This document shows positions 5,594 through 20,366 of a stretch of DNA of 64,000 nucleotides, one piece after another. The notes under the pieces were generated by a model. It had not been told where the DNA came from. It saw only the letters and a list, made by a program, of their open reading frames with translations, and ran no database searches. The stretch is from Mesorhizobium sp. AR02. GTDB taxonomy: Bacteria > Pseudomonadota > Alphaproteobacteria > Rhizobiales > Rhizobiaceae. The position numbers and the translations under genes are program-made. Position 1 is the stretch's first letter. Each line of letters opens with the position of its first letter. Location of the stretch: the NCBI RefSeq assembly GCF_024746835.1, contig NZ_CP080531.1, positions 3,988,001-4,052,000 of the forward strand, read 5' to 3'.

Positions 5594-5672
5594 CTAAAGG
5601 GTGGGGCGCTGGGCTTGGTCATTGCGCACGCAATTGCCGTGCCCGTCCGTTTTCAGATCCGAGGATTTCCCC

Positions 5673-6719
5673 ATGCCCTATGTCGCCGCCGAAAACCGCT
5701 ATGAGAAAATGATCTACAACCGCTGTGGGCGGTCCGGCCTCAAGCTGCCGGCGATCTCGCTCGGCCTGTGGCACAATTTCGGCAATGACACGCCGCACAA
5801 GACCAAGCAGGCGATCGCCCGCAAGGCGTTCGATCTCGGCATCACGCATTTCGACCTCGCCAACAATTACGGGCCGCCGCCCGGCTCGGCCGAGACCGCT
5901 TTCGGCGAAATCCTGCGCACCGATTTCGCCGGATATCGCGATGAGCTGATCATCTCGACCAAGGCCGGTTACGAGATGTGGGCCGGACCCTATGGCGAAT
6001 GGGGCGGGCGCAAATACATGCTGGCCAGCCTCGACCAGAGCCTGAAGCGGATGGGGCTCGACTATGTCGACATCTTCTATTCACACCGCTTCGATCCCGA
6101 CACGCCGCTGGAAGAAACCATGGGCGCGCTCGACCATGCGGTGCGCTCGGGCAAGGCGCTCTATGCCGGCATCTCGTCCTACAATTCGCAGCGCACCCGC
6201 GAGGCCGCCGATATATTGAAGCAGCTCGGCACGCCGTGCGTCATCCACCAGCCGAGCTATTCAATGCTGAACCGCTGGGTCGAGGAAGACGGCCTGCTCG
6301 ACACGCTGGAAGGGCTCGGCGTCGGCTCGATCGTGTTCTCGCCGCTGGCGCAAGGCATGCTGACCGACAAATATCTCGGTGGCATCCCTGAAGGCAGCCG
6401 CGCCTCGCAGGGCAAGTCGCTGAAGTCGGCCTTCATCAACGACCGCACCATCGCCAACATCAAGGCGCTCAACGCCATTGCCGGCAAACGCGGCCAGACG
6501 CTGGCACAGATGGCTCTGGCCTGGGTGCTGCGCAAGGGCAAGGTGACGTCGGCGCTGATCGGCGCCAGCCGGCCTGAGCAGGTCGAGGACTGCGTCGGCG
6601 CGCTGAAGGTGCTCGACTTCAGCGATGCCGAATTGGCGGAGATCGATAGTTACGCGCGCGAATCCGACATCAATCTGTGGGCGGCCTCGGCCGAGCGCAA
6701 AGGCCCGCCGAGGAAATAG
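5673..6719 (+). CDS. yghZ: Aldo/keto reductase, L-glyceraldehyde 3-phosphate reductase type
   Basis: A 348-residue NADPH-dependent reductase that closely resembles E. coli YghZ/GPR along its whole length (GLWHNFG, FDLANNYGPPPGSAE, YRDELIISTKAGY, IFYSHR). The AKR catalytic tetrad is Asp61, Tyr66, Lys97 and His138. The start at 5673 is preferred over an upstream in-frame start at 5601 because a GAGGATTT ribosome site precedes it and the family N-terminus begins here. It follows the sugar operon by 136 bp, across a palindromic repeat, and ends at a strong bidirectional terminator. The likely role is detoxification or reduction of small sugar aldehydes. Confidence 0.9.
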   Translation: MPYVAAENRYEKMIYNRCGRSGLKLPAISLGLWHNFGNDTPHKTKQAIARKAFDLGITHFDLANNYGPPPGSAETAFGEILRTDFAGYRDELIISTKAGYEMWAGPYGEWGGRKYMLASLDQSLKRMGLDYVDIFYSHRFDPDTPLEETMGALDHAVRSGKALYAGISSYNSQRTREAADILKQLGTPCVIHQPSYSMLNRWVEEDGLLDTLEGLGVGSIVFSPLAQGMLTDKYLGGIPEGSRASQGKSLKSAFINDRTIANIKALNAIAGKRGQTLAQMALAWVLRKGKVTSALIGASRPEQVEDCVGALKVLDFSDAELAEIDSYARESDINLWAASAERKGPPRK

Positions 6720-6793: not shown

Positions 6794-7891
6794 TCAGGGC
6801 GTCTTCGGCTTCTGGGCGGTGCCCAGCCCGGCTTTCGGCTTTTCCGGCGCGGGAGCAGGGGTCTTCATCTTCGCTTCGATCCAGCCGCCGTAGTTGGCCA
6901 GCCGCGTGTAGATGCCATAGGCGTCCTTGTGGCCGCAGGCCGCACTGCCGTCGGCCGGCCCTTCGCCCCAGCTGACGACGCCGACTTGGACCGGGCCGTC
7001 GGCGCCGGTGATGAACAGCGGGCCGCCGCTGTCGCCATTGCAGGCATCACGCACGCCGCTGGTCGTGCCGGCGCAGATCATGTTGCCGGTCAGCGGGTCG
7101 GTCATGTCGGCGGCGATCGCGTTGGCGGCGGCATCGATGCCCTTTTCCGAATAGCGCATCCTGTGGGACAGATCGCCAAGCGCTGCCTTCAAATCATGCG
7201 CGTAGATGGCCTTGATGCCGCTGTTGCAGGCGCTGTTGGGCTGCAGATCGAGATCCGCGACCATCAGCGTCGTCGGGAACGTCCCGTCCTGCATCTTGCC
7301 CCAGCCAGTGACGGTGGTCTTGCCGGTGTCGGGGGTCGCATCGTGGGTGAGCTTGATGGTCGGTGCATCGGCCGGCTCGGCAAGGCGGAGCAGGCCAAGG
7401 TCGTTGTCGAGCGTTTGCTCGCTGTAGCCCTCATTGACGATGACTTGCAGCACCTTGTGGCGCTTGCCTTCGCTGAGGTCGGTGGCGCCGGTCAGCACGG
7501 TGACCGCATCAGGCGAGATCGGCTTGCCTTTGTCGTTGAGGCAGTGCGCCGCCGTCAGCACCCATTGCGGCGCGATCAGGCTGCCGCCGCAGAATTGCGC
7601 ATTGGCCTGCGAGGCCGGGTTCTCGTCCAGCCTGGCGGTGGTGAGCAGCGCGACCTGGAACGGATAGGCGCCCTTTTCGGCCTGGTTGCCGCCATAGACC
7701 CGATCGGCGCCGTCGGGGTTCTCCGCCGCTGCCTTGGCCCTGGCCTCGGTCACCCGCTGCATCGGCGAGACCGCCGCTTCTGGCCTTGCGGTGGCTTCGT
7801 CCGCACGGCCGGAGTTGATTGATACAAAGGCAGCGGCAATGCCAAGCAGCGATGCGGCAACGATTGGCCGGAACCGATTTGTGATGTCCAC
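6794..7891 (-). CDS. Exported trypsin-like serine protease (S1 family zymogen)
   Basis: A 365-residue secreted protease. A GTG start at 7891 is chosen because AGGAGG stands five bases upstream and a clear signal peptide (about residues 8-30, ending GRADEA) follows at once. The upstream in-frame extension to 8056 is not signal-like. The catalytic triad is His116 (LTAAHC), Asp164 (DNDLGLLRL) and Ser288 (GDSGGPL). Asp282, six residues before the serine, predicts cleavage after Lys/Arg. The sequence R64-VYGG matches the trypsin activation site, so residues of about 31-64 form a propeptide. A Pro/Lys/Ala-rich tail follows residue 340. It is divergent from another exported protease gene at 8291. 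Confidence 0.92.
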   Translation of the reverse strand: MDITNRFRPIVAASLLGIAAAFVSINSGRADEATARPEAAVSPMQRVTEARAKAAAENPDGADRVYGGNQAEKGAYPFQVALLTTARLDENPASQANAQFCGGSLIAPQWVLTAAHCLNDKGKPISPDAVTVLTGATDLSEGKRHKVLQVIVNEGYSEQTLDNDLGLLRLAEPADAPTIKLTHDATPDTGKTTVTGWGKMQDGTFPTTLMVADLDLQPNSACNSGIKAIYAHDLKAALGDLSHRMRYSEKGIDAAANAIAADMTDPLTGNMICAGTTSGVRDACNGDSGGPLFITGADGPVQVGVVSWGEGPADGSAACGHKDAYGIYTRLANYGGWIEAKMKTPAPAPEKPKAGLGTAQKPKTP

Positions 7892-8290
7892 CTGAACCTC
7901 CTGAGACAATTCTCCCGCGCAGATCGACGCCGGGCATTGTGCAAGGAGGTGTTGCCGGTTCAGCGATCCGCACGCGTGCCGTATCGAAACGGCGCGCGAT
8001 CGGTCACAAAACCGCATCCCACTTTTGCTAACCGTGCCCGCGAGTAGAACCCGCACAAAATCCTATAGCCCCCCACGGGCTACGTGGAAGCGATTTGTCA
8101 TTGCCAATCTTGGATTATTTTAGGCAGTATGTCGCGATAGGGTCTTTTGGCGGGGGCTTAGATTGACCGTGGCAAACAACCATCCGGTACGTGCGGCGAT
8201 AGCCTTACCCATTTTTTCGGCACCACCACGATCTCGACAATATTTCTGTATTTTGATCCAGTCCTTGCTGACTTTTGGGAGAGTCTCACC
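7892..8290. other. Divergent intergenic region between two protease genes
   Basis: These 399 bp lie between two divergent exported-protease genes. No gene was recognised. It must hold both promoters, but no convincing -35/-10 pair was found. A small hairpin TAGCCC-GGGCTA lies at about 8066-8082. The half near 8291 is clearly more AT-rich than the flanking genes. Confidence 0.5.
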
Positions 8291-9385
8291 ATGACAAAAC
8301 TGACAAACGTTATGATAGCGTCCGCATTGCTTTCCACCGCAATTTGGACGGTCCCGGTTTTCGCCGCCGACCCTGGTTCCGCCAGTGCCGGTAATGGCGA
8401 AAGCATGCGGGATGTATCTTCAGGCGACTTCAAGGCCGGTCGGGCAAAACCGATCACGACACCGAAGCTTACCGATGAAGACAGCCGCGCCGCGCCGCTC
8501 ACCGACGAGAAGACGGCTGTCAAATCCTATGGCATCGTCGGACGGTCCGCCGATGGCAAGGTGATCAAGATCGAGCCGAGCGAAGCGCTGCGCGAGCTCA
8601 TCATCAAGGAACTGAATGCGCCGGCCAATGGAGCTGAAGGTGGCCCGCGCAAGACCGAGGATCCCGGGCTCGGCGAAGGCGAAGCCGGCCGCCAGGTTTT
8701 CGGCACCGACGATCGCGAGCAGGTCAAGAACACCAAGACCTATCCGTTCTCGGCAATCGGCTATCTCGAAGCCAAATCGGCGAAGACAGGCAGCTATGGC
8801 AGCTGCTCGGCAACGCTGATCGGCCCGCGCACGGTGCTCACCGCGGCGCACTGCCTCTACAGCCATGAAGACAAGGACTGGCTCACTGAGTATCTGTTCG
8901 TGCCGGGCCTCAATGGCAGCACCGCCGACGATGCCCCGTTCGGTGCCTTCACCTATGAAAGCGCCTATGTGCTGCAGGGCTTCATCGACAACTACCAGGG
9001 CTATTACGGCTCGGTCATCCCGTGGGACCTGGGCATCATCACGCTGAAGCAGGATGTCGGCACCAACCTCGGCTGGCTGGGCTACGCCAACTATGACGAT
9101 CTTGGCGACTTCACCGCCAACCTCGTCGGCTATCCCGGCGACAAGCCGATGGGTACGATGTGGAAGACAAGCTGCGAGGTGAAAGCCGAGAACATCGCTC
9201 CGGAATATTTCCAGTATGACTGCGATACGTTCCCGGGGTCGAGCGGCAGCTCGGTCTATGCCTATGACAACAGCTCCAAGCAGCGCATCATCACCGGCGT
9301 CAACGTGGCGGAAAGCCCCGAGGCGAACACCGCCGTGCGCCTGAACGCCGCCAACGTCCAGTGGATCAACAGCCTGTACAAATAA
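8291..9385 (+). CDS. Exported V8/glutamyl-endopeptidase-like serine protease (S1B zymogen)
   Basis: A 364-residue protein with an N-terminal signal peptide (cleavage near residue 26, VFAAD). A long propeptide follows, then the mature-type sequence from about residue 135, QVFGTDDREQV. This strongly recalls the mature N-terminus of Bacillus glutamyl endopeptidases, which begins with a V-x-G-S/T-D-D-R pattern. The triad is His187 (LTAAHC), Asp246 (PWDLGIITL) and Ser318 (FPGSSGSS). The residue before the mature part is Arg134, so a Lys/Arg-specific protease could activate it; such an enzyme is encoded next door. Cys172/188 and Cys295/311 may form disulfides. GGGAGAG precedes the ATG. A strong terminator follows. 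Confidence 0.9.
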   Translation: MTKLTNVMIASALLSTAIWTVPVFAADPGSASAGNGESMRDVSSGDFKAGRAKPITTPKLTDEDSRAAPLTDEKTAVKSYGIVGRSADGKVIKIEPSEALRELIIKELNAPANGAEGGPRKTEDPGLGEGEAGRQVFGTDDREQVKNTKTYPFSAIGYLEAKSAKTGSYGSCSATLIGPRTVLTAAHCLYSHEDKDWLTEYLFVPGLNGSTADDAPFGAFTYESAYVLQGFIDNYQGYYGSVIPWDLGIITLKQDVGTNLGWLGYANYDDLGDFTANLVGYPGDKPMGTMWKTSCEVKAENIAPEYFQYDCDTFPGSSGSSVYAYDNSSKQRIITGVNVAESPEANTAVRLNAANVQWINSLYK

Positions 9386-9405
9386 CCCTCGTACGCGCAG
9401 TTACA

Positions 9406-9438
9406 AAAAAGGCGGCGGAGCAATCCCGCCGCCTTTTT
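9406..9438 (+). terminator. Rho-independent terminator
   Basis: The 13-bp perfect arms AAAAAGGCGGCGG (9406-9418) and its complement (9426-9438) end in TTTTT and enclose a 7-base loop. It follows the V8-like protease by 20 bp. The A-run/T-run symmetry would let it work on either strand. Confidence 0.92.
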
Positions 9439-9535
9439 CGTGCCGATCCTTCCGCACGGCTTCCCTTGCACGAGGCAGGCGCCCCGACTACGCTTGGCTC
9501 GCCAAAAGGAGGCGAGGCATCCAAGGGGTCAAGGG

Positions 9536-11362
9536 ATGGCGCGGGCAAGGGCAGTATCCGGGATCGCGGCCGCATCGATGCTGGCCACGCTGATGCTTTC
9601 ACCGGCTTTTGCCGATCCCGCCCCTGTCGGCGGCGCCTGGGCGGAGCGCGTGCAGATCCTCTATCAGGCCGACACACGCTCGGTGCTGCGCAGGACCGTG
9701 CGCGCCTGGGATTTCCATCCGGAAAAGAACCTCGACTTCGTCTGGGAGCCGGCGGCGGGCCAGTCGCCTGACAAGACGATTGCCGAGGATGGCACGATCA
9801 ATGGCAAGGGCAGGCTGGTGTGGCGGGTGCGCGGCTCGGCGAGCTATGACCCGAAGACCGTCTATTCCAGCTATTTCGGCGATGTCAGGAACGGCCGGCC
9901 CGACGGGCAAGGCCGGCTCGAACTGCGTTCGGGCGAGGTTTTCGACGGCCATTGGCTTGGCGGAGAACTCAATGGCAAGGGCATCCATATCGATGCCGAC
10001 GGCAACCGCTATGAAGGTCAGTTCGTCGCCGGCGTCCCGAATGGCGAGGGCCGGTTGCTGTCGAAGACAGGAGAGATCTTTGCCGGCTCTTTTGTCGGTG
10101 GGTTGAAGAATGGCAAGGGCACCACGCGGCTCGCCGGCGGCACCGTCTATGAATCGCAATGGGTGATGGGCAAGGAGGTCGGCGGATCGCGTCCCGACGT
10201 GCTGGCCGATGCCAGGGTCGGCGGCCTGCTCAAGGCGCAGGCCGGCGGCGGCGATGCCGACAAGGTCGAGATCGGCGTCATCGTCGACCAGCGCATGACC
10301 CAGCAGGCCGACATGAAATACCAGCATCTGGTGCGCGACGAGGATGTTGCGATCTATCCGGAAGACAACCTTTACAACGACGCCTGGAATGGCACCGGAC
10401 AGGTCAACACCACCAATGTCTATGAAGGTCCGGACTGGGAAAACACGCCGGCCTTTGCCGAGGTCGACCTGAAGACGACGGACGAGTCCAGGGTCAAGCT
10501 CGACAGCCTGGAAATGAAGGTCGCTGCCAGCGACGCCTACCGCAAGCCGATGCTGTCGATCTCTGAGCATTTCGGCTGCATCGGCTTCCGGCCGGATTTC
10601 TCGATCATCAACAGCGGCTGGGGCGACGCCAAGGACATGAAGATGTCGATCCAGTTCACCACGGTGGACGAGGAGGGCAAGCCGACCGGCCAGCCAAGCC
10701 GCATGTTCAACAAGGATATTGGGGATTTCGGCGAGGGTGTCGACGTGTCGATCAAGAGCGTGCTCGACGAGGCCGGCGTCGACACGGCGAGCCTGGAAAC
10801 GGGGCGTTTCCCCTGTCCTTCGGTCGACAGTCTCAATGTCTGCCGTAGCCAGCTCACCAACAAGATCAAATTCGGCGAGGTTGGCGACTATCTCGGCAAT
10901 TTCAACCAGGCCATGACGCTGAATGCGATCGGCAAGTTCGACTATTCCTGGGCCGACGATCAGGGCAACGTCTACCAGCAGAGCGAGCCCTTCCGTGCCC
11001 AGATGACCATGGCGGTCTTCGAGACCCCTGAATCGATGGCCGAATGCGGCGATGGCGGTGGCGGCAGTCCGGAAGCGATGCGCTACCAGAACATCGAATT
11101 CCCGATCGGCAAGCACGATTACACCATTGCCATGCCGGTGCGCGGCAACAAGAACGTCAGCGCCTATACGGCGCGGCTGAAAATGTGGTCATCGATGTCG
11201 TCGATCCACAGTTTCAGCATCGCCGCGCACTTTGCCGACGGCAGCGTGCGCGAGAGCAAGCCGGTGACCTTCTTCTATTTCCGGCCGAAGCAGTCGCTGT
11301 TCGAGACCAAGACCGAACCGGCGGCGTGCTATCTGCCGCGCCAGATGGCGGGCTGCGGCTAG
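9536..11362 (+). CDS. Exported MORN-repeat protein
   Basis: A 608-residue protein with a signal peptide (about residues 1-27, ending SPAFAD). About four to five MORN-type repeats lie between residues 110 and 215 (YFGDVRNGRPDGQGRLEL, FDGHWLGGELNGKG, YEGQFVAGVPNGEGR, FAGSFVGGLKNGKG). A long C-terminal region of about 390 residues follows that I do not recognise; it holds several Cys residues (CIGF, FPCP, NVCRS, AECG, AACYLP) that could form disulfides in the periplasm. The start at 9536 is preferred over the in-frame 9440 because the signal peptide begins here. MORN repeats usually bind proteins or lipids. The gene sits in the exported protease/caspase block but has its own terminator upstream. 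Confidence 0.82.
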   Translation: MARARAVSGIAAASMLATLMLSPAFADPAPVGGAWAERVQILYQADTRSVLRRTVRAWDFHPEKNLDFVWEPAAGQSPDKTIAEDGTINGKGRLVWRVRGSASYDPKTVYSSYFGDVRNGRPDGQGRLELRSGEVFDGHWLGGELNGKGIHIDADGNRYEGQFVAGVPNGEGRLLSKTGEIFAGSFVGGLKNGKGTTRLAGGTVYESQWVMGKEVGGSRPDVLADARVGGLLKAQAGGGDADKVEIGVIVDQRMTQQADMKYQHLVRDEDVAIYPEDNLYNDAWNGTGQVNTTNVYEGPDWENTPAFAEVDLKTTDESRVKLDSLEMKVAASDAYRKPMLSISEHFGCIGFRPDFSIINSGWGDAKDMKMSIQFTTVDEEGKPTGQPSRMFNKDIGDFGEGVDVSIKSVLDEAGVDTASLETGRFPCPSVDSLNVCRSQLTNKIKFGEVGDYLGNFNQAMTLNAIGKFDYSWADDQGNVYQQSEPFRAQMTMAVFETPESMAECGDGGGGSPEAMRYQNIEFPIGKHDYTIAMPVRGNKNVSAYTARLKMWSSMSSIHSFSIAAHFADGSVRESKPVTFFYFRPKQSLFETKTEPAACYLPRQMAGCG

Positions 11363-11414
11363 GGTGTATTGATATTCAGGCGATGCCGGCCTGACCTGAA
11401 TCTCAACACACCCT
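11361..11414. repeat. Palindromic intergenic repeat, short form
   Basis: The 20-bp arms 11361-11380 and 11395-11414 match at 18 of 20 positions when paired. The left arm overlaps the MORN gene stop codon. The same arm sequences recur at 44757-44776 and 44881-44900, where they enclose a much longer interior. It could double as a terminator between convergent genes. Confidence 0.8.
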
Positions 11415-11423
11415 GGGAAGCGC

Positions 11424-13145
11424 CTATTTGCGGCCCATCTCGAAATAGTTGGGCAGCGGGATCAGCCGGGTGAAGATCGTGCCCTGGGCGAAGACGCGCA
11501 GCTCCAGCATCGATCCGGACGAGCGCTCAGCGCTCTGGTCGAACAGGAAATTGCCGAGCGAATAGACCTCCGCCACATCGCCGCCGGCAAGCGGGACGAT
11601 CGCCTCGCTCGACACATGCGGATGGCCGCCGACAATGGCCGAGACGCCGCGCAGCCGCATCTCATCGGCCAGCATGTCTTCGCGCGCCGAAGGTTCTGTT
11701 CTGTACTCGCGGCCCCAATGGACGAAGGCGACCACCGGCCGCTGCGCATTTTCATGCAGCAGCCGGTCGAGCAGAGCAGGGGTCAACAGGTCGGTGTTCT
11801 TCGAGCCGTTGGTGTCGATGTCGGTCAGGCCGACAAGATCGAGATCGGCAAGCGCCAATGTCTCGCCCTGGCCGAAATGCGCGATGCCGGCCTCGTCCAG
11901 CGCGTGCAGCGTCTCGGCATAGCCAGAGGGGCCGAGATCATAGGCATGATTGTTGGCGAGGCTGACGCCGGCGACATGCAGCCGCTTCAGCATGCTGGCG
12001 GCGAGGTCTTCCGGCATGGCCAGCGTCATGTCGTCGATCGCTTCCGGCACGTTGGGCAGGATGACGCCTTCGAGATTGACGATCAGCGGCCGCGATCCGG
12101 TCAGCGCCAGGATGCTGTCGACGATCTTGTCAGCAACGCCGTCGCGAACCAGGATCTTCTTCATGGCGCGGCCGAAATTCACGTCACCGGCGAGATAGTA
12201 GATCCTGTCCTTTGGCCGTGCCGGGTTGTTGAAGCCGGGACCGAAGGCGCCGAACAGCGCCACCACATAACTGGTGGTGCGCTCGACATAATCCGACGTG
12301 TGTTCCTGCGAGTTCTCGTTGGCGACCACCAGCGGCTGAGCGCCGAACAATTCCCGCTGCAGCCTGGTCTGGATGTAGAGCGCGTCGACGGAATCGGCGT
12401 GATCGGGTTGGCGCAACCCCGCTATACTGTCGAGCGATCCGGCGGCCAGCATGTTCAGCGTCTGCTGGTCGAAGCGCCGCGCATCGTGCTGCGGCAGGTA
12501 GTGCGAAAAGTCGGTGGATTCGACGATCAGCGTGTCCTGATCGACGATGGCTTTCAGCGCTTCGGCCAGCCTGTCCCAGTCGCCGCGCTTCGCCTTCACC
12601 GACATCGCCACCGGCACGATTTTCGCCTCGGGGAAATAATGGTGCAGGAACGGCAGCATGGCACGCACGCCATGCTCCTTGTCGAACAGGCAGGATTCCT
12701 CGACCATGTCGCTGTGTGCTTCGAGAAGGCGCACGGCATCGCTGTCGGCAGCCACCGGGCCAAGCACGGTGTCGAAGCCGCGCAGCGTGGTGGCGTACAG
12801 TTTGTGCGTCTTGTGGAAATGGTCCGGCGACAGGATGACGATGCGCTTGTAGCGGAAGCCCGATGCTGCCCGGAAGCCGAGTGCCACGAGGTCGGCGGCC
12901 AAGAGATGATGCGGCACGGTGATGCCGGTCAGCCGCTGGTTGGAAGGCTGGACATCGGTGACGTTTGCGATGGCGTTCTTGAACAGAGTGGCGTCGTCGT
13001 AGAAGGGCGGGAAGTTTTCGGTGCCGGGTGGGCACACGATGGGCGCGGCGAAGGTGGGGAGGGGAAACAAGGTGAGGAGAGTGATTGCAAAGATCAGCGG
13101 AATGCCGGTCTGCGCCCAGGCACCCCCCTCTGTCCTGCCGGACAT
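11424..13145 (-). CDS. Exported Memo-like / CapA (PGA_cap) fusion protein
   Basis: A 573-residue protein with two domains. The N-terminal half (about 30-295) matches the AmmeMemoRadiSam B / Memo family: VPHHLLAADLV, ILSPDHFH and STDFSHYLP supply the histidine-rich metal site. The C-terminal half (about 315-560) matches the CapA/poly-gamma-glutamate capsule (metallophosphatase-like) family: AGDVNFGR, VNLEG, SLANNHAYDLG, FVHWGREY, GGHPHV, YSLGNFLFDQ. The start chosen (13145) gives a hydrophobic signal peptide (PLIFAITLLTLFPLPTFAAP). That ATG and its GGGGGAG ribosome site lie inside a palindromic repeat. An alternative GTG at 13298 overlaps the upstream caspase stop (GTGA) but would only translate repeat sequence. 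No membrane anchor is seen at the C-terminus. Confidence 0.85.
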   Translation of the reverse strand: MSGRTEGGAWAQTGIPLIFAITLLTLFPLPTFAAPIVCPPGTENFPPFYDDATLFKNAIANVTDVQPSNQRLTGITVPHHLLAADLVALGFRAASGFRYKRIVILSPDHFHKTHKLYATTLRGFDTVLGPVAADSDAVRLLEAHSDMVEESCLFDKEHGVRAMLPFLHHYFPEAKIVPVAMSVKAKRGDWDRLAEALKAIVDQDTLIVESTDFSHYLPQHDARRFDQQTLNMLAAGSLDSIAGLRQPDHADSVDALYIQTRLQRELFGAQPLVVANENSQEHTSDYVERTTSYVVALFGAFGPGFNNPARPKDRIYYLAGDVNFGRAMKKILVRDGVADKIVDSILALTGSRPLIVNLEGVILPNVPEAIDDMTLAMPEDLAASMLKRLHVAGVSLANNHAYDLGPSGYAETLHALDEAGIAHFGQGETLALADLDLVGLTDIDTNGSKNTDLLTPALLDRLLHENAQRPVVAFVHWGREYRTEPSAREDMLADEMRLRGVSAIVGGHPHVSSEAIVPLAGGDVAEVYSLGNFLFDQSAERSSGSMLELRVFAQGTIFTRLIPLPNYFEMGRK

Positions 13146-13278
13146 CTCCCCCGCAAGGGGGGAGATTAGCAGCTTCCGCCTCGTAACCCGTCTTGCAACA
13201 TTGAAGATTGGCGAAAGCAGCAATAACAGCCGATCTCCCCCCTTGCGGGGGAGATGTCCGGCAGGACAGAGGGGGGTG
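13121..13278. repeat. 46-bp perfect inverted repeat pair (palindromic intergenic element)
   Basis: Bases 13121-13166 and 13233-13278 are exact reverse complements over 46 bp, and similarity continues a further ten or so bases outward. They are separated by 66 bp. Each arm also contains a small internal palindrome (CCCCGCAAGGGG type). It resembles the RIME/Sm-repeat class of rhizobial intergenic elements. The arm at 13121-13166 provides the ribosome site and start codon of the Memo-CapA gene; the other arm begins 17 bp after the WD40-caspase stop. Confidence 0.9.
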
Positions 13279-13294
13279 CCTTGGCGCAGCCCCC

Positions 13295-16200
13295 TCACGG
13301 CTCGGCCAACACGATGTTCTCCACGCCGCCGACATAATAGAACGGCTTCTGCTTCGACGCGGTCAGCCGCACCACTTCGCGCGAAATGAAATCGGCGAGC
13401 CCGAACAGCGTGACGCCGCCATCGGAAGTCCGGGCCTTTCCACGCAAACCTTCGAGGATCGAATAGGTGAAGACGCCGTGGCCGAGTTCCGGCAATTCGG
13501 CGGCGGTGTTGTTGGCGGCGGTGGCTGAAAAGACCACGATGCGTGCGTCCTGCGCGTCCTTTTCCAGGCGCGGATTGAAGGCGTTGGCGGCATGGCAGGT
13601 GTCGAGCAGCATGAAGCGCATGCCCTTGGCCCGCTCGACCGATTTCTGGATATCACCCCAGTCGACAAGCGACGAACGCTTCCAGCGATCGGCATCCTGT
13701 TTGCGGCCATCGGTCGGGATGAAATAGTAGTCCTCGTCGATGTTGATGCCATGGCCGGCGACGAAGATGATGGTGGTGTCGTGCTCGCCGGGTCTGTCGA
13801 GGAAATCGGCAAGCTGGTCGTCGATCGTGTGCGAGTCCGGCTCCATGATGTTGTCGGCGCTGGCGACGGTGTATGTCTGCTTGGCCTTGTCGGGGCTTTC
13901 GTCGAGCGCTTCGCGGTTGACCAGAACCAGCGTCTCCATCGAGGAGAACAACGGCGCCGACTTCTGTGCGATCACTTTGAGGAATTCGGTGGCGTCGTCG
14001 ACGGGGTAGCGCAAATCGCAGGCGTGACCGGAACAGGCGTCGGTCAGGAACGGATATTTGTCGACGCCGATCACCGCGACATAGAGCTTGCCCTTGGCCT
14101 CGGCCTTTTCGGTCTTCCTCGCCAGCGCCGTCACGCTGCGCTCGGTCAGATAGCCATATTCATTGGTGCCGGTGATGCGGATGGTGTTTTCGCCATTCTC
14201 GACCGGCACTTCGACGACGGTCTTGTTGCCGTCCGCCGAACGCGTGGTGACGTCGCCGACATTGCGGCTGTTCGACAGGATCGAGAAGCCGGCGACATCG
14301 GTGCCGGCTTCCTTAGCGCCTGTGATCTCGACGGCGACATAACCGTCGCGCACCTTGCTCTGGTCGTCGGCCAGCCGGATGCCGAATTCCGGCGGCTTGC
14401 GCTGCAGTAGCTTCTGCAGCTCGTCGTCGACGCCCGGCCGCATCTCGTTCACCGCCTGTTTGGCACTGCGCAGGATGATGGCGCGGCGCACCATTTCCGG
14501 GCTCCAGAGATATTTCTTCAGCTGGCCGGCGCGGATGAAGCGGCCTTCATGGTCGCGGCCCTGGTTGACCTGCCAGCCGATCAGCTTGTCGCCCTCGTCG
14601 GAGGAATAATAGTAGCCCTGCGGCATCCAGGCGATCCATTGCGAGCCGGCAAAGAACATCGACACGATCAGCTCGTGCGTCTTCAGGTTCCACAGCCTCA
14701 CTGTCTGGTCGGCGCTGCCGGTGACCAGCAGGCCGGCCTTCTGCGAGGCGACCATGGCGTTGATCTCGCCGGTATGGCCGGTGAATTCGCCGGAAACCCT
14801 GGCGGTCGCGGCCTTGTATTCCAGCAGCGTGCCGTCATTGCCGCCGGTGATCAGCCCAAGCCCGTTGTCGATCAGCGTGAAGGCCGAATGGACAAAGCCG
14901 CTGGTGGCATCGTTCTCGATCGAGCGTACCACCTTGCCGCCATTGGCGATTTCCAGCACCGCGTTTTCCAGTGCGTCCTTGCCGCCTTGAGTGGCGTGCA
15001 GCGACCACTCGCCATCGGTCAGCGCGGCGCGGGCAAACGAGTCCGGCTCCGTCAGCGGTTGCGGATCCTCGAAGAACCGCTCGGTCGTGGGCAGCTCCAG
15101 CCTCTTGTCCAGCGCACCCATCTGTGCCGGGCAAGCCACGCGCTCGGGGCAGGGGTTGGCATTTCCCCAGGCGATGATGCCGTTTGCAGCGTCGATGCCG
15201 ATGGCGGTCACCGGCTCTCCCACCCCCTGCAGCAAGGCCTTGCGTTCGCCGGTCGCCGGGTCCCAGACCTGGATGGCGTTGCGCGTGCCGCCGGCGGTCG
15301 CCACCAGCGAGCCGTCGGCATTGGCGGCGCTGGCATAGACCGTGCCGTCATGGCCGGCATAATCGAGCAGCTTCTCGCCGCTGTCGGTGTTCCAGACGAT
15401 GGAACGGTTCTTGTCGGCGCAGCGATAGCCGCAGGACGCGACCAGAAGCGATCCCTTGGCGAAGGTCAGCGCGCCGATGAGAAAATCCTGCTTCGGCATG
15501 GCGCGCACCAGCGTGCCGTCGGCCGCGCGCCAGAGCTGCACCTGGCCGTCCTTGCTGCCGGTGGCAAATAGGCTGCCGTCCTGCGAGATCGCCAGCGCCA
15601 GGACGCTGATGTCCCGCAATGGTTCGGCCTCTGCCGGCAAGGCGATCTCCTCGCCCTTGGCGACATCCCAGAGCCGGATGCCGTTGTCGGTTGTTGTTGC
15701 AGCCAGCCGGGTTCCTGCAGCGGCGAAGGCCAGCTTGTCGATGTGCCAGGAATCGGCGTCGAGTTTCTTGTCCAGAGTCCAGCCTGACGTGGCCTTGTCG
15801 TCCTGTTTCCACAAATAGACGACGCCATCGGCACCGCCGGCGGCAAGCGTCTTTCCATCGGGAGAAAAGGCGAGGTCATAGGTCGCGTAGTCAGCGGCCT
15901 TGAGCACGGCCTTGATCTTGCCGGTGGCGAAATCGAACAGCCTGATGTCGCCATAGGGCGGCTTGTCGCCGAGGCTGGCGCCGAAATAGCCGCCGGCCGC
16001 AATCGCCTTGCCATCCGGCGAAACCGCAACCGCGAAGATCTTGCCGTCGCTGCCATTGCCGAGATAGCCGCGTATGGTGCGCAGCGTCACGCCGCTCTGC
16101 CAGTCCCAGATGCGGATGGTCTTGTCGTCGGATGCCGAGACAACGTCCTCGCCGTCGGGGGTGAAGGCCAGGTCGGCGATCCGGGCGGTATGGCCGCCGG

Positions 16201-16327
16201 TGTCGAGATCGAGATGGAAATCCGGGGCATCCTCGGCGCGGGCGAACGAGGCCGTGACCAAAGCTCCAGCCATGGCCAGCCACCTGCAGGCACGCATGAG
16301 GCGGACGCTGACCCGGGCTTTTCCCAT
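13295..16327 (-). CDS. Exported WD40-repeat protein with C-terminal caspase (C14) domain
   Basis: A 1010-residue protein. The N-terminal signal peptide is about residues 10-32 (LAMAGALVTASFARAED). WD40-type beta-propeller repeats follow, with many FSPDGK and RIWDW/RLWD signatures between about 45 and 600. A linker beta domain (about 670-760) leads to a caspase-like p20 domain from about 765 (KLYVAVIGVDKYPF). The predicted catalytic dyad is about His859 (FVAGHG) and Cys911 (LLDTCHAANAF). The later GHGVFTYSI stretch is also typical of bacterial caspases. The start at 16327 lies two bases after the upstream stop. In-frame starts further upstream overlap the previous gene. The combination is known in bacteria, but export to the periplasm is notable. 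Confidence 0.88.
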   Translation of the reverse strand: MGKARVSVRLMRACRWLAMAGALVTASFARAEDAPDFHLDLDTGGHTARIADLAFTPDGEDVVSASDDKTIRIWDWQSGVTLRTIRGYLGNGSDGKIFAVAVSPDGKAIAAGGYFGASLGDKPPYGDIRLFDFATGKIKAVLKAADYATYDLAFSPDGKTLAAGGADGVVYLWKQDDKATSGWTLDKKLDADSWHIDKLAFAAAGTRLAATTTDNGIRLWDVAKGEEIALPAEAEPLRDISVLALAISQDGSLFATGSKDGQVQLWRAADGTLVRAMPKQDFLIGALTFAKGSLLVASCGYRCADKNRSIVWNTDSGEKLLDYAGHDGTVYASAANADGSLVATAGGTRNAIQVWDPATGERKALLQGVGEPVTAIGIDAANGIIAWGNANPCPERVACPAQMGALDKRLELPTTERFFEDPQPLTEPDSFARAALTDGEWSLHATQGGKDALENAVLEIANGGKVVRSIENDATSGFVHSAFTLIDNGLGLITGGNDGTLLEYKAATARVSGEFTGHTGEINAMVASQKAGLLVTGSADQTVRLWNLKTHELIVSMFFAGSQWIAWMPQGYYYSSDEGDKLIGWQVNQGRDHEGRFIRAGQLKKYLWSPEMVRRAIILRSAKQAVNEMRPGVDDELQKLLQRKPPEFGIRLADDQSKVRDGYVAVEITGAKEAGTDVAGFSILSNSRNVGDVTTRSADGNKTVVEVPVENGENTIRITGTNEYGYLTERSVTALARKTEKAEAKGKLYVAVIGVDKYPFLTDACSGHACDLRYPVDDATEFLKVIAQKSAPLFSSMETLVLVNREALDESPDKAKQTYTVASADNIMEPDSHTIDDQLADFLDRPGEHDTTIIFVAGHGINIDEDYYFIPTDGRKQDADRWKRSSLVDWGDIQKSVERAKGMRFMLLDTCHAANAFNPRLEKDAQDARIVVFSATAANNTAAELPELGHGVFTYSILEGLRGKARTSDGGVTLFGLADFISREVVRLTASKQKPFYYVGGVENIVLAEP

Positions 16328-16329
16328 CG

Positions 16330-17034
16330 CTATTTGGCTTCGGCCGGTGGCCCGTTGCGCACATAGGCTTCGATCGCCGTGGCGAAGGTGGGTGAACCGG
16401 CCTTGCGCTGCTTGTCGACATAGCCGGCAAAATAACTCCAGAATGAGATGGCGTAGTCGCGGAAATAGGCGTCGGTGACCTTGCGCGAACACAGATCGCC
16501 ATCGACGCAGAAGGACAGGCGGTTGAGGAAATAGACGATGCGGTCGAAATTCTCGCTGAAATCGGCAAGCGGCATGTCGCCACCGGAGGCGGTCATCGCC
16601 TCGATGCCGATGCGCTGCCGGAAAACCTGTTCCTCGGTCGGCGAGGGATTGGCGCTGAGCAGATTGTCGTATTTGGCATTGAGGGCTGAGAGACGATCCT
16701 TGAGCGCCCGTTGCGCCTGCTGGTAGTCCTTGGTTTCCCAGAGCTCGACCAACGACATCGTCTGCTCGACACGCTTCTGCTCCTGGTTGGCGAGGAACTG
16801 GTAGACCGAGAATGCCAGGGTGAAGATGATGGCGAAACGCACCAGCATGCCCGACCAGGCATAGACGAGCATGCGCCAGTCGCGATCGGTGAAGGGATTG
16901 CTCTCCTTCTTGATCTCATGGCTGCTCGGCCAGGGGAAACCTTCCGTGGTTTCGGGCAGCGTCTGCTTGGCCGCCGGCGCGTTGGCTAGCGCGGCCACCG
17001 GTGTCTGCTTTGTCGTGCCCCCCGGCTTCTTCAT
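16330..17034 (-). CDS. Unknown membrane-anchored protein in caspase operon
   Basis: A 234-residue protein that I do not recognise. A polar Ala/Pro/Thr-rich cytoplasmic N-terminus (1-58) is followed by one membrane segment (about 60-85, MLVRFAIIFTLAFSVYQFLA). A charged, probably coiled-coil helix (88-125) follows, then a compact domain with two Cys (FCVDGDLCSRK), presumably periplasmic. Its ATG overlaps the stop of the upstream small secreted protein (ATGA, 17031-17034) and it is followed after two bases by the WD40-caspase start, so the three are translationally coupled. A role as membrane anchor or scaffold for the caspase is inference from context only. Confidence 0.75.
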   Translation of the reverse strand: MKKPGGTTKQTPVAALANAPAAKQTLPETTEGFPWPSSHEIKKESNPFTDRDWRMLVYAWSGMLVRFAIIFTLAFSVYQFLANQEQKRVEQTMSLVELWETKDYQQAQRALKDRLSALNAKYDNLLSANPSPTEEQVFRQRIGIEAMTASGGDMPLADFSENFDRIVYFLNRLSFCVDGDLCSRKVTDAYFRDYAISFWSYFAGYVDKQRKAGSPTFATAIEAYVRNGPPAEAK

Positions 17035-17432
17035 TTGCAGTTGTCCAGTTCGATGGTGGCGGAGGGATCAAGCACGATGCCCGGCGTCTCCAGCTGCTTC
17101 TTCAGGCACTGCAGTTGCGGGCGCGAAACCATGAACTGCACGTCCGGTTCCGCAGGCGCCTTTGTCGGTGACGGTAATGCCTCGACGATGCCGCGCGAGG
17201 CGCAACTCGAAAGATCGACCACCACCGCGTCACTGCTGGTTTTAGCGAATTGGTCGTACTGATCGAGAAAACAGGTCGCCAGTTCCGAGTTGGTGACGAT
17301 CTGCTTGACGCACAGGCCGCAAGCGTCCTCTGCCGACGCGTTGGCGATCAGCAACAGACCGCCGGCAAGTCCGGCAATCGTTCCGCGCCAGGAAAATAAA
17401 GGCTTCTTCACAATCGATCCTATCTGCTTCAT
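17031..17432 (-). CDS. Small secreted cysteine-containing protein in caspase operon
   Basis: A 133-residue protein with a signal peptide (about residues 15-34, IAGLAGGLLLIANASAED). The mature part of about 100 residues has six Cys (ACGLC, ATCF, SSCAS, LQCL, DNCK) that could form three disulfides. No family is recognised. It overlaps the next gene by four bases and lies 98 bp downstream of the Tat-type caspase gene. A small secreted disulfide protein inside a protease operon could be an inhibitor, adaptor or substrate; this is inference. Confidence 0.75.
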   Translation of the reverse strand: MKQIGSIVKKPLFSWRGTIAGLAGGLLLIANASAEDACGLCVKQIVTNSELATCFLDQYDQFAKTSSDAVVVDLSSCASRGIVEALPSPTKAPAEPDVQFMVSRPQLQCLKKQLETPGIVLDPSATIELDNCK

Positions 17433-17529
17433 CAGCCGCTGGGTCCTTGGCTGCGGCTGGGGATGTTCTCATATCGCGCCAATCGCGCAAGAGCCGGTTG
17501 TACCAGGCCGTGTGGCCCTGCGCCGGAAC

Positions 17530-19731
17530 TCAGGCGCGCGGCACCGTCTCCATCGGGAAGATCATCACCGCACCCTTGGGGCCGCTCTTGTCGGCAAGCC
17601 GCATGACCGAGCGGGTCGGCGGCGCCGCGCCGATATCGGCGAGCATGTCGGAGAAGCTGGCGGGGCCGAGCCCGCGCGTCATCGACGCGACGCCGTCCTG
17701 CGCCAGGAAACTCAGATCCTCCTTCTCGCTCTCCGGCGGCGCCTCGGTCAGCACCGCGATCATCCGCTCCATGCCGAAGCTGGTGTCGGTGAAGGCGAGC
17801 AGCCCTTCCTCCAGGGTGGCCTGTGGCGCCAGGCGCTCGGCAACGATGTGGGTGATCGAATAGTCGCTGCCGACATAGAGCACGTTGATATCGACGAGCT
17901 GGTCCGAGCTGTTCTTGGCCAGCACATGCACTTCGTCGCCTGGCGAGACGCGCGGCACCACCGAGGCCTGCAAGGGCTCGAGTCCATCCTTGTCGCGGCG
18001 CTTGACCTGGAACTGGACGTCGACATCCTCGGGCTTGTAGTCGGAGGCCGCCGCCAGCCGCGACAGCCCGGTGGCGCGGAAGATGGTGCGCAAATTCCTG
18101 GTCGTGGCGTCGACCAGCTTCTGGCGGTCGTCCGGATGGATGATGATCAGCGGCGGCTTGCTGCCGTCCTTCAAGGTCACGTCGCCCGACGCCGGCAGGA
18201 ACCACAGCGCCGGCTTGTCGGTGGCGTCCCCGGCGGCGCCTGCAATCGCATTCTCGCGCATCACCGCGAAGCGCAGCTCGGCGCTTTTGCCTGGGTCGAC
18301 CAGCTCGATGTTGAAGCCGGTCTCCTTGGCCGCGGCCAGTTCGTCGAGAATCGAATTGACCAGTTCGGTTTCCTTCTCCAGTCCGTTGGTCGCGGCCGGC
18401 CGCGCCACGGCAAGCTTGTAGTCGACGGCGATCTCCGCCGCCCGCGCATAGGCGTTGGCGGGAATGTCGGTGAGCTTGAGTGCCGGCTTCTTCTCGAACT
18501 CGACCGGTTTGACATGGCTCTCCAGGTTTTTGGCCGACTCCACTTCGAGATAGCCGACCGCGTCGGACAGCGACGACAGCGCCGACGGCAGGATAGCGAG
18601 CTTGCTGCCCGGCGTCAGGCGATGCAGCAGGCCGGCGCCGATCGTCGCCTCGCCGTCCTTGATGACGATGGGCCACTGCATGACGGCGTCGGTCTTGTCG
18701 GTGCCGAAGACGCGCGCGTCGAGTTCGCCCTCGAACAGCGGTGTCGGCCGGGTGCGGCTGTCGGCCGAATATTGCTGCAGCACGGCCTGGCCAAGCTGGC
18801 GATAGGTGACGTTGGGATTTTCCGCCAGTTTCGACAAGATGGTGAAGGTGAACAGGCCGAAGCGTGGCGCATCCGTCGTGCCCTTGGGCAGCGGCATCTC
18901 CGGCGTCGTCTCCACCGTCTGCGCGGCATAGAAGGCGACCAGCTTGCCCTTGGTGATCGGCTCGCCACCGGTTGGCGTCAGGTTGAAGGCGGGTTTGCGC
19001 GCGCCATTCTCGTCGAGGCCGCGCGAGGCGCTAGCGACGGTGTTCGCGTAAGTCTTGATGGCTGCAGCCCTGGCGGCCTCGTCGCCGCCGACCAGATCAG
19101 CGAACTCGATCTTGCGCTCGAATTCGTCGTCGACTTCCACGGCACGCGTCATTGTACCGGAATGGCAACAGTCGAAAACGGCCCAGATGAAGGCACCCTT
19201 ATTGCGGATGGCATCGAACGCATCGCCAATTTCATTGTCGACCAGCGCATTCGGTACGCCGGCGTCGCGGTTGATCCATTTGTCGATGTCGACGGGCAGG
19301 AAGATCTCGTCGAGTCCGTCGGTCTCGTCGCCCTTGACCATTTCCGGCTGCTGGGCGCCGTGGCCGGAGAGATGCAGATAGACGAAATCGTCGCGCTGAA
19401 CCTTGGCGGCAAGGTCGGCGAGCGCCGCCTTGATCGCCGCATGGGTCGGCAAGCCTTTGGCGCCGGGCACATCCTTGGCGAGCAGCGTGACGTTTTCGGG
19501 CGCGAACCGCACCGGGTCGGGCACGTTCTTCAACAGATACTCGTGCACCAGGCCGGCATCGTTCTTCGGCCCGATCAGCCAGTTCCTCTGCGGCAGGGCA
19601 GGGTATTCGGTGCAACCGACCAGCAGCGCATGATAGGTGCGCGATGCCGCCAGCGCGCGAAACGAGACCGTACTGGCGGCCATCAGCGCGGACGTGCCGA
19701 CAAGCAGCGTCCGGCGTGTCAATTTGATCAT
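17530..19731 (-). CDS. Exported caspase-family (C14) protease with Tat-type signal
   Basis: A 733-residue protein. The N-terminus TRRTLLVGTSALMAAS, followed by Ala-rich sequence to about residue 29, looks like a twin-arginine signal. The caspase p20 domain is at about 31-290 with predicted catalytic His124 (LSGHGAQ) and Cys189 (VFDCCHSGT, the classic CHSG context). The C-terminal region of about 400 residues has a domain like the DUF4384-type 'surface/beta' domain found after bacterial caspases (SGDEVHVLAKNSSD..LYVGSDYSITHI..). The start at 19731 is preferred over 19857 because GGGAAGCG stands just upstream and the signal begins there. It heads the minus-strand cluster that runs through the WD40-caspase. 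Confidence 0.9.
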   Translation of the reverse strand: MIKLTRRTLLVGTSALMAASTVSFRALAASRTYHALLVGCTEYPALPQRNWLIGPKNDAGLVHEYLLKNVPDPVRFAPENVTLLAKDVPGAKGLPTHAAIKAALADLAAKVQRDDFVYLHLSGHGAQQPEMVKGDETDGLDEIFLPVDIDKWINRDAGVPNALVDNEIGDAFDAIRNKGAFIWAVFDCCHSGTMTRAVEVDDEFERKIEFADLVGGDEAARAAAIKTYANTVASASRGLDENGARKPAFNLTPTGGEPITKGKLVAFYAAQTVETTPEMPLPKGTTDAPRFGLFTFTILSKLAENPNVTYRQLGQAVLQQYSADSRTRPTPLFEGELDARVFGTDKTDAVMQWPIVIKDGEATIGAGLLHRLTPGSKLAILPSALSSLSDAVGYLEVESAKNLESHVKPVEFEKKPALKLTDIPANAYARAAEIAVDYKLAVARPAATNGLEKETELVNSILDELAAAKETGFNIELVDPGKSAELRFAVMRENAIAGAAGDATDKPALWFLPASGDVTLKDGSKPPLIIIHPDDRQKLVDATTRNLRTIFRATGLSRLAAASDYKPEDVDVQFQVKRRDKDGLEPLQASVVPRVSPGDEVHVLAKNSSDQLVDINVLYVGSDYSITHIVAERLAPQATLEEGLLAFTDTSFGMERMIAVLTEAPPESEKEDLSFLAQDGVASMTRGLGPASFSDMLADIGAAPPTRSVMRLADKSGPKGAVMIFPMETVPRA

Positions 19732-19908
19732 ATCGCTTCCCCAAGCCCGATCGAATTTCCCAAGCGAAACCACCCTCGTCGAGGATTTTGTCAGTATTTT
19801 GAATGTCGCTCCGCCATCAAATGTGCCCGCACGTGATCGATTGGCCCGGGACAACAACAGAAGAGTAGCAAAGACGGCGGTTCGTCGCTATCTGAATGGA
19901 ATCAGGCC

Positions 19909-19924
19909 GTTTGCATGGGCAAAC
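19909..19924. promoter_or_regulatory. Palindrome GTTTGC-ATGG-GCAAAC, possible operator
   Basis: Perfect 6-bp arms around four bases, 38 bp upstream of the Fur/Zur-type gene start, in the divergent region shared with the Tat caspase gene. It does not resemble the AT-rich Zur or Fur boxes I know. It may be an autoregulatory site or chance. Confidence 0.25.
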
Positions 19925-19961
19925 AGCCCTGGGATGGCGCAGGACAAGTTGGAACCGGACC

Positions 19962-20366
19962 ATGGCGGCAAGGGATGTGCTGACGAAAAACCAGGTGTGC
20001 GTGCTCGAGAAGCTCGAGGCCGCCAGCGGGCCGCTCAGCGCCTACACCTTGCTTGACCAGTTGCGCGAACGCGGCTTCCGCGCCCCGCTGCAAGTCTATC
20101 GCGCGCTCGACACGCTGGTGAAATCCGGCTTCGTGCACCGGCTGGAAAGCATCAACTCCTTCGTCGCCTGCGCCGAGCCGCACGACCACAGCCATTCGAT
20201 GACCGCCTTCGCCATCTGCGACACCTGCGGCCAGGTGACCGAAATGTCGGATCACGATGTCGACCACCGGCTGAACGAATGGGTTCATTCGACCGGCTTC
20301 GCCGCCAAGAAGGCGGTGATCGAATTCCGCGGGACGTGTGCGAAGTGCCGGGCCGAAGCGGCATGA
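19962..20366 (+). CDS. zur: Fur-family transcriptional regulator, probably Zur
   Basis: A 134-residue DNA-binding repressor. The N-terminal winged helix is followed by the metal-rich hinge EPHDHSHSM and two CxxC motifs (Cys86/89 in CDTCG and Cys126/129 in CAKC) that form the structural zinc site. The short length and the His-rich hinge favour the zinc-responsive Zur branch over Fur or Irr. The start at 19962 (MAARDVLTKNQ) fits the family; the in-frame 19896 extension is unlikely. No znu transporter genes lie beside it. It is divergent from the Tat caspase gene. Confidence 0.75.
   Translation: MAARDVLTKNQVCVLEKLEAASGPLSAYTLLDQLRERGFRAPLQVYRALDTLVKSGFVHRLESINSFVACAEPHDHSHSMTAFAICDTCGQVTEMSDHDVDHRLNEWVHSTGFAAKKAVIEFRGTCAKCRAEAA

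Follow-up and report, generated by a model that had tools for sequence, protein, structure and literature searches.

Two caspases and two serine zymogens in a putative envelope protease module of Mesorhizobium sp. AR02

The stretch of DNA analysed here (the window, 64,000 nucleotides of Mesorhizobium sp. AR02, contig NZ_CP080531.1, positions 3,988,001 to 4,052,000) contains a group of eight genes, between window positions 6794 and 19731, for two caspases, two serine proteases of the zymogen type and four further proteins. The first-pass annotation had called eight open frames in this interval, and a check of the open reading frames of the window finds all of them in place. Read from right to left, the minus strand encodes a caspase with a twin-arginine-type signal (Tcasp, 17530..19731), a small Cys-rich protein, predicted to be exported (17031..17432), a membrane protein of the DUF4760 family (16330..17034), a WD40-caspase (WDcasp, 13295..16327) and a Memo-CapA protein (CapA, 11424..13298). 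Facing this row on the plus strand are a glutamyl-endopeptidase-like zymogen (S1b, 8291..9385) and a MORN-repeat protein (MORN, 9536..11362), and a trypsin-type zymogen (S1a, 6794..7891, minus strand) is divergent from S1b. The same layout is usual in relatives, with Tcasp-small-membrane-WDcasp-CapA and S1b-MORN as two facing transcription units and S1a divergent. The tight coupling claimed earlier for the minus-strand genes stands for the small and membrane genes (overlap of 4 bases, recurring in relatives), for the membrane gene and WDcasp (gap of 2 bases) and, if CapA starts at the GTG at 13298, for WDcasp and CapA (overlap of 4 bases). The position of Tcasp had to be corrected, the gene ending at 17530 and the small gene at 17432, with 97 bases between them.

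Tcasp carries an N-terminal Peptidase_C14 domain (PF00656, above the Pfam cut-off, E 1.5e-12), along with a long C-terminal region, and its best matches in the PDB are metacaspases. WDcasp possesses a signal peptide, WD40 propeller repeats and a C-terminal caspase domain; the Pfam scan of this protein listed 25 of 45 matches, and its C-terminal 271 residues alone match Peptidase_C14 above cut-off (47.3 bits). The WD40 sensor once proposed as a protein of its own is the N-terminal part of WDcasp. The two C14 His/Cys dyads, also noted at first pass, are both intact and invariant: His126 and Cys191, along with Asp189, in 70 of 70 aligned Tcasp sequences, and His859 and Cys911, along with Asp909, in 40 of 40 aligned WDcasp sequences (these counts, like those for the triads and pocket residues of S1a and S1b below, cover sequences of sufficient length, free of internal stops and scoring above 150 bits). 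The Asp located two residues before the catalytic Cys in both proteins is, we assume, the residue that sets specificity for Arg or Lys. Orthocaspases are described as cleaving after basic residues (PMC5756287, PMC6426788), with the Arg/Lys preference assigned to an acidic pocket (PMC5756287). Judging from the conserved pocket Asp, cleavage after Arg or Lys by both Tcasp and WDcasp is plausible. In the genome as a whole, 13 matches to PF00656 were recorded, and this is a lower bound as the search of the own genome did not list WDcasp, which makes at least 14. The sequence ATTCAAAATACTGAC lies at window positions 19790-19804 (minus strand), approximately 60 bases before the Tcasp start, and occurs once in the window; this stretch is near-identical in 12 aligned rows of the Mesorhizobium type, with similar sequences in two further loci (L069 and L070), and it is a possible promoter or operator.

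The other two proteases bear out the earlier claim of two S1-type triads, which is complete in 15 of 15 aligned sequences for S1a, and for S1b in 46 of 46 for His and Asp and in 44 of 46 for Ser. S1a matches PF00089 above the Pfam cut-off (E 2e-44), possesses a signal peptide and presumably starts at the GTG at 7891, with AGGAG directly upstream. It aligns to solved trypsins from V64, the predicted mature N-terminus in the motif VYGG, and the Arg63 that precedes it is found in 53 of 53 distinct sequences; the pocket Asp189 typical of trypsins is present in the window protein and in 13 of 15 sequences overall. S1b, whose propeptide is of about 110 residues, has 1p3c as its best solved relative (E 1e-18), with V136 aligned to residue 2 of the latter, placing the mature start near Q135 (motif QVFG), and the Arg134 before it is found in 53 of 54 distinct sequences. 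Most positions of the pro-segments before these activation Arg residues are variable in both proteins. S1b lacks the specificity His of glutamyl endopeptidases, having instead Asn338 in 46 of 46 sequences, opposite the His region of 1p3c (pairing by eye); we take this His to lie near residue 213 in the V8-type enzymes, with Asn338 at the matching place. Trypsins cleave after basic residues. In two of the related loci, a second S1b-type gene adjoins MORN (L069:11064-12140 and L081:2852-3928), in which GGNG replaces the catalytic Ser motif, and these likely encode pseudoproteases retained within the cluster; they are the two exceptions in the Ser count above.

As to the nonproteolytic members, both the repeats and the fold of the MORN protein were confirmed, with MORN matches in Pfam, a C-terminal beta-sandwich region and a signal peptide. 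Memo-CapA matches PF01875 (Memo) and PF09587 (PGA_cap) in Pfam and AmmeMemoSam_B in NCBIfam; the AmmeMemoRadiSam partners, AMMECR1 and the radical-SAM protein, are not among the eight genes, to which the search was limited. The hydrophobic signal of CapA lies inside the frame, and its start is uncertain because an inverted repeat (window positions 13120-13285, with each arm measuring some 45 bases as judged by eye) extends across approximately the first 60 codons; a part of this repeat matches other places in the related loci L067 and L072. The membrane protein has a single span by eye and matches PF15956 (DUF4760, E 3e-7). The small protein belongs to no known family: it has no match in Pfam, NCBIfam or PADLOC, and none in the PDB at E 0.001 when considered as a possible inhibitor fold, its model having a predicted local distance difference test (pLDDT) score of 69. 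It has 173 relatives, and among the 120 listed the names, where given at all, are only hypothetical or uncharacterized; its six Cys residues (38, 41, 54, 77, 109, and 132) are invariant across 46 rows. The export features originally ascribed to all eight proteins can be recognized by eye, as a hydrophobic segment with an A-x-A-like site in six of them, a twin arginine (TRRTLL) in one and a single membrane segment in one. A crude script recovered only 4 of 7 such signals and also scored 9 of 34 outside frames, mostly membrane proteins, and thus provides no usable base rate.

One Tcasp scan of the GTDB genomes produced 52 loci, of which 28 contain all eight genes together and two contain seven, with S1a missing before the stretch ends. 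Eleven maintain Tcasp, the small and membrane genes and S1b, with CapA and MORN gone and WDcasp gone but for a stub in one. Another three end at a contig edge after WDcasp. The remaining eight, each of them partial, distant or short, include a Tcasp alone in 12 kb (L077) and a weak planctomycete match (L080). The genome in question (8.9 Mb) is of the Mesorhizobium type, and its nearest named loci, at up to 97%, are from Mesorhizobium; its locus is flanked by an aldo-keto reductase gene (5601-6719) on one side and by a Fur-family gene (19896-20366), then polA, on the other (Pfam). When absence of the WDcasp-CapA-MORN unit is traced on a tree built with polA from 37 loci (out of the 44 numbered L029 to L072, those with a polA match of more than 800 residues, including 8 of the 11 that lack the unit), 6 changes are counted, translating to about five losses as some strains are near-identical, on a tree that is not fully independent of the locus, since polA adjoins it.

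The distribution of seven of the genes (all but the small one) was also assessed in 121 genomes of the family, own genome included, at E-value limits from 1e-3 to 1e-60. MORN, WDcasp and CapA are each found in 7 of these, and the seven genomes are identical, including one (G062) in which MORN is about 150 kb away from WDcasp and CapA. Tcasp is recognized in 27 genomes at 1e-3, 13 of them with a long copy (the own and others at 43-64%); one copy, in G087 (42%), contains a stop. The membrane protein is found in 14 genomes, the 13 long-Tcasp carriers (at least 47%) and G088 (29%), S1a in 18, including the 13 carriers at 55% or more, and S1b in 13, 12 of the carriers and G077 (35%). Seven of the 13 carriers have S1a within the Tcasp locus. 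In others, it is apart from Tcasp, by about 20 kb (G028), 163 kb (G062) or 366 kb (G007), on another large contig (G112) or on another contig (G030), and its linkage is unclear in G055, as the Tcasp contig ends inside an S1b. When the neighbourhood is examined for conservation, several genomes are seen to keep both halves though unlinked. One genome of the same genus (G073) possesses none of the seven genes whole, only a 162-base Tcasp remnant with the Fur gene on one side and the aldo-keto reductase gene on the other. The grouping of the eight genes is more than chance.

Scattering of the genes beyond close strains had been named as an outcome that would speak against the group, and in Rhodobacteraceae they are still together, in a rearranged order. 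One example is a locus of a Rhodobacteraceae bacterium (L075), in which a DUF900 hydrolase shares its strand with Tcasp; the opposite strand carries S1b, WDcasp, CapA, and MORN, and there S1b overlaps WDcasp and WDcasp overlaps CapA by 4 bases each. In another (L078), S1b, S1a, and Tcasp follow one another in the same direction. In L074, Tcasp faces MORN and the contig ends thereafter, and in a member of Hyphomicrobiales (L073), Tcasp, WDcasp, and CapA are in a row, with spacings of +29 and -4 and no match to the small/membrane pair in the locus. In L101, Tcasp is located beside a WD40-caspase that is 25% alike. The 4-base overlap of WDcasp and CapA is found in seven loci (L069, L070, L073, L075, L081, L089, and L097), with gaps of +13 in L082 and +1 in L088, the gene starts in this survey being those picked by a script nearest to the expected place; the membrane/WDcasp gaps of L069, L081, and L087 were not used because the ends of the membrane proteins run past a stop. 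The rearranged cluster of L075 with its 4-base overlaps is stronger evidence for a unit than is co-occurrence within a clade.

At about even odds (a probability of roughly 0.5), we propose that the locus represents a single protease module of the envelope, from which the WDcasp-CapA-MORN unit can be removed. In such a module, Tcasp, the small/membrane pair, S1a and S1b would form a self-sufficient set, with WDcasp, CapA and MORN as an add-on. Two exported caspases, Tcasp by means of its Tat-type (twin-arginine translocation) signal and WDcasp with its beta-propeller, would cut after Arg or Lys, and S1a and S1b would be secreted as zymogens to be activated by a cut after the conserved Arg, so that a caspase, or S1a itself, could fire either of them. 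As orthocaspases and trypsins both cut after basic residues and the activation Arg is conserved, mutual activation is possible. The small Cys-rich/DUF4760 pair might anchor Tcasp at the inner membrane, the WDcasp propeller and the MORN/beta-sandwich protein might sense or dock targets, and Memo-CapA might be a partner enzyme of WDcasp. What the data show directly is the gene content, the joint inheritance, the recurring overlaps and the conservation of the catalytic residues and of the P1 Arg. The export, activity, order of action, trigger and purpose (envelope stress or conflict) of the module are inferred; as far as the sequences go, proteases of the envelope could plausibly form an Arg-triggered relay. 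The catalytic residues, the activation Arg and the export signals fit the periplasmic proteolytic cascade of the first-pass annotation, while the cascade as such and its location stay conjectural, as do the roles of scaffold, of adaptor or inhibitor and of sensor suggested in that annotation. We tentatively extend the proposal to a zymogen cascade in the periplasm, reminiscent of coagulation or complement, in which the zymogens (trypsin-like and V8-like, fired by a cut after Arg) and the exported caspases may amplify one another, in several architectures across Alphaproteobacteria, and in which, as part of the same tentative extension, control may be exerted by the propeller, MORN and Cys-rich partners. 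Bacterial systems of caspases and trypsins are mostly treated as intracellular immunity or cell death in the sources consulted, which do note Tat-type and helix-bearing caspase homologues. If the proposal is true, the envelope would house a protease relay made up of intact, exported caspases and Arg-activated serine zymogens.

A number of observations weigh against the module. On a polA tree of 30 genomes, the 13 carriers belong to one clade that also includes three non-carriers (G060, G073, and G043, the latter genome 76% complete), and descent beside polA thus accounts for part of the shared presence. Outside the family, 384 other alphaproteobacterial genomes (with the best 2-3 candidates scored in each) produced 3 Tcasp matches at 1e-20 and one weak CapA match, and the full system is rare among them. 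Relatives of Tcasp are found without the other seven genes in L083, L085/L113 (59-60%), L092, L094 (35%), and L096, those of L083, L085/L113, L092, and L094 being second or plasmid copies, and in L077 Tcasp stands without the other seven with 10 kb of upstream sequence present. The pocket Asp189 is lost in 2 of 15 S1a sequences and the catalytic Ser in two S1b-type paralogues; an activation Arg and an acidic caspase pocket are common in these families and are no proof of cross-cutting. Finally, no nuclease, pore or clear killing effector is found within the eight-gene cluster.

This last point bears equally on the idea of an envelope conflict or cell-death system, sensing a phage, a predator or a rival, whose proteases destroy envelope proteins of the host or the attacker. 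Such a role would agree with the repeated loss expected of a costly system, with caspases and trypsin-like proteases being activators in described immune systems (PMC12799240, PMC7159879), with a Rhizobium plasmid on which Memo-CapA and a MORN-C-domain protein adjoin a TIR-nSTAND1-WD40 gene, and with two Sulfitobacter plasmids on which Tcasp-family caspases are accompanied by genes for a CHAT protein and a DUF900 hydrolase, a WD40 gene being also present on one. However, no known effector is encoded, PADLOC returned domain-level matches only (the best of the caspase kind being a partial match to its 'caspase' model, 55.8 bits), and the Mesorhizobium locus is vertically kept beside polA, where nothing in the stretches inspected looks like a defence island. 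We consider this role unlikely. The same stable site beside polA, along with the PGA_cap domain and the export signals, might point to housekeeping maturation of the envelope, the proteases processing surface or capsule-related proteins and Memo-CapA acting as a capsule-type enzyme. This is somewhat less likely still: two zymogens and two caspases are more than processing requires, the genes were not found in the clade members G060 and G073 (nor in the 76% complete G043), and partial loss has occurred many times, both unlike a core function. That the exported proteins have no joint function and were inherited side by side by accident would suit a single carrier clade and parts that stand alone, such as Tcasp on an Aquibium plasmid or, in Rhizobium, CapA together with a MORN-C protein; it is very improbable in view of operons that are rearranged yet coupled in Rhodobacteraceae and of unlinked co-retention in at least four carriers.

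The proposed envelope module resembles several described systems in part, its nearest kin being conflict systems with caspases and trypsins. Some pseudo-orthocaspases (Trypsin-p20(QC)-DUF4384 proteins of Alphaproteobacteria and Tat-type proteins of cyanobacteria) likewise link trypsin and caspase domains or have Tat-type signals on caspase homologues, but these are pseudo-enzymes with an altered dyad, the trypsin type being a fusion (PMC6426788), in contrast to the four separate intact proteases here, to which Memo-CapA, MORN and the membrane pair are added. The nuclease pairs of Hachiman, AVAST and canu (PMC12799240) also involve a zymogen partner activated by a trypsin or a caspase; these are, however, antiphage systems with pro-nucleases, while the proteins here have export signals and no nuclease domain among their listed matches. 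The VMAP ternary, EACC1 and NucA-trypsin systems (PMC7159879, PMC8195603) combine caspase and trypsin peptidases in multigene arrangements and include the pairing of a caspase with an alpha/beta hydrolase, as is also seen beside Tcasp in L075. In contrast to these, the listed matches of the eight genes include no MoxR, vWA, STAND or NucA domain, and no nuclease or NTPase partner of the canu, NucA-trypsin or VMAP kind is among their listed Pfam, NCBIfam and PADLOC matches. WD40 is the commonest partner of putative bacterial metacaspases (73 sequences, 10.9%) in PMC3501461, WDcasp differing in its signal peptide and in sharing an operon with Memo-CapA. By analogy, the locus would act like the known caspase/trypsin activation systems, yet their partner domains are not among its listed matches, and we found no description of such an envelope proteolytic switch.

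Related exported sets are found on plasmids. In Rhizobium, pRL11 (L163:1308-8604) and p42e (L164:1297-8635) encode, in a row, a DUF4384-OmpA protein, a caspase, a trypsin-caspase-DUF4384 fusion and a serpin, followed by a kinase-like gene (Pfam was run on L163). This operon type, of which 2 records were examined out of the 136 from plasmids that matched S1a at 1e-25, is similar in its signal peptides (by eye) and in a caspase beside a trypsin with Arg before VIGG; it differs in the serpin and the DUF4384-OmpA protein, in a trypsin only about 33% alike, and in that the stretch read contains neither CapA nor MORN. It looks like an exported protease group with its likely inhibitor, and suggests that sets of exported caspases and trypsins extend beyond the present locus as a broader theme. 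On the Sulfitobacter plasmids (L157:6878-10979 and L158:818-9133), the Tcasp-family caspase is found with a DUF900 hydrolase, of the same family as that beside Tcasp in L075, and a CHAT protein, one of the two also with WD40. The Memo-CapA of a Rhizobium plasmid (L110:13866-16868) faces a MORN-C-domain protein without MORN repeats, beside the TIR-nSTAND1-WD40 gene. A lone Tcasp (59%) on the Aquibium plasmid (L113:11043-16515) has a Fur-type regulator and disulfide genes of the Dsb/Ccd kind as neighbours. In Pseudosulfitobacter, 46 records contain a relative of Tcasp and, likewise, 46 contain one of S1a; on one plasmid of this genus (L112:1572-14007), a trypsin and two caspases, with signal peptides as judged by eye, are accompanied by a PDZ-trypsin, a patatin-like gene and a two-component pair.

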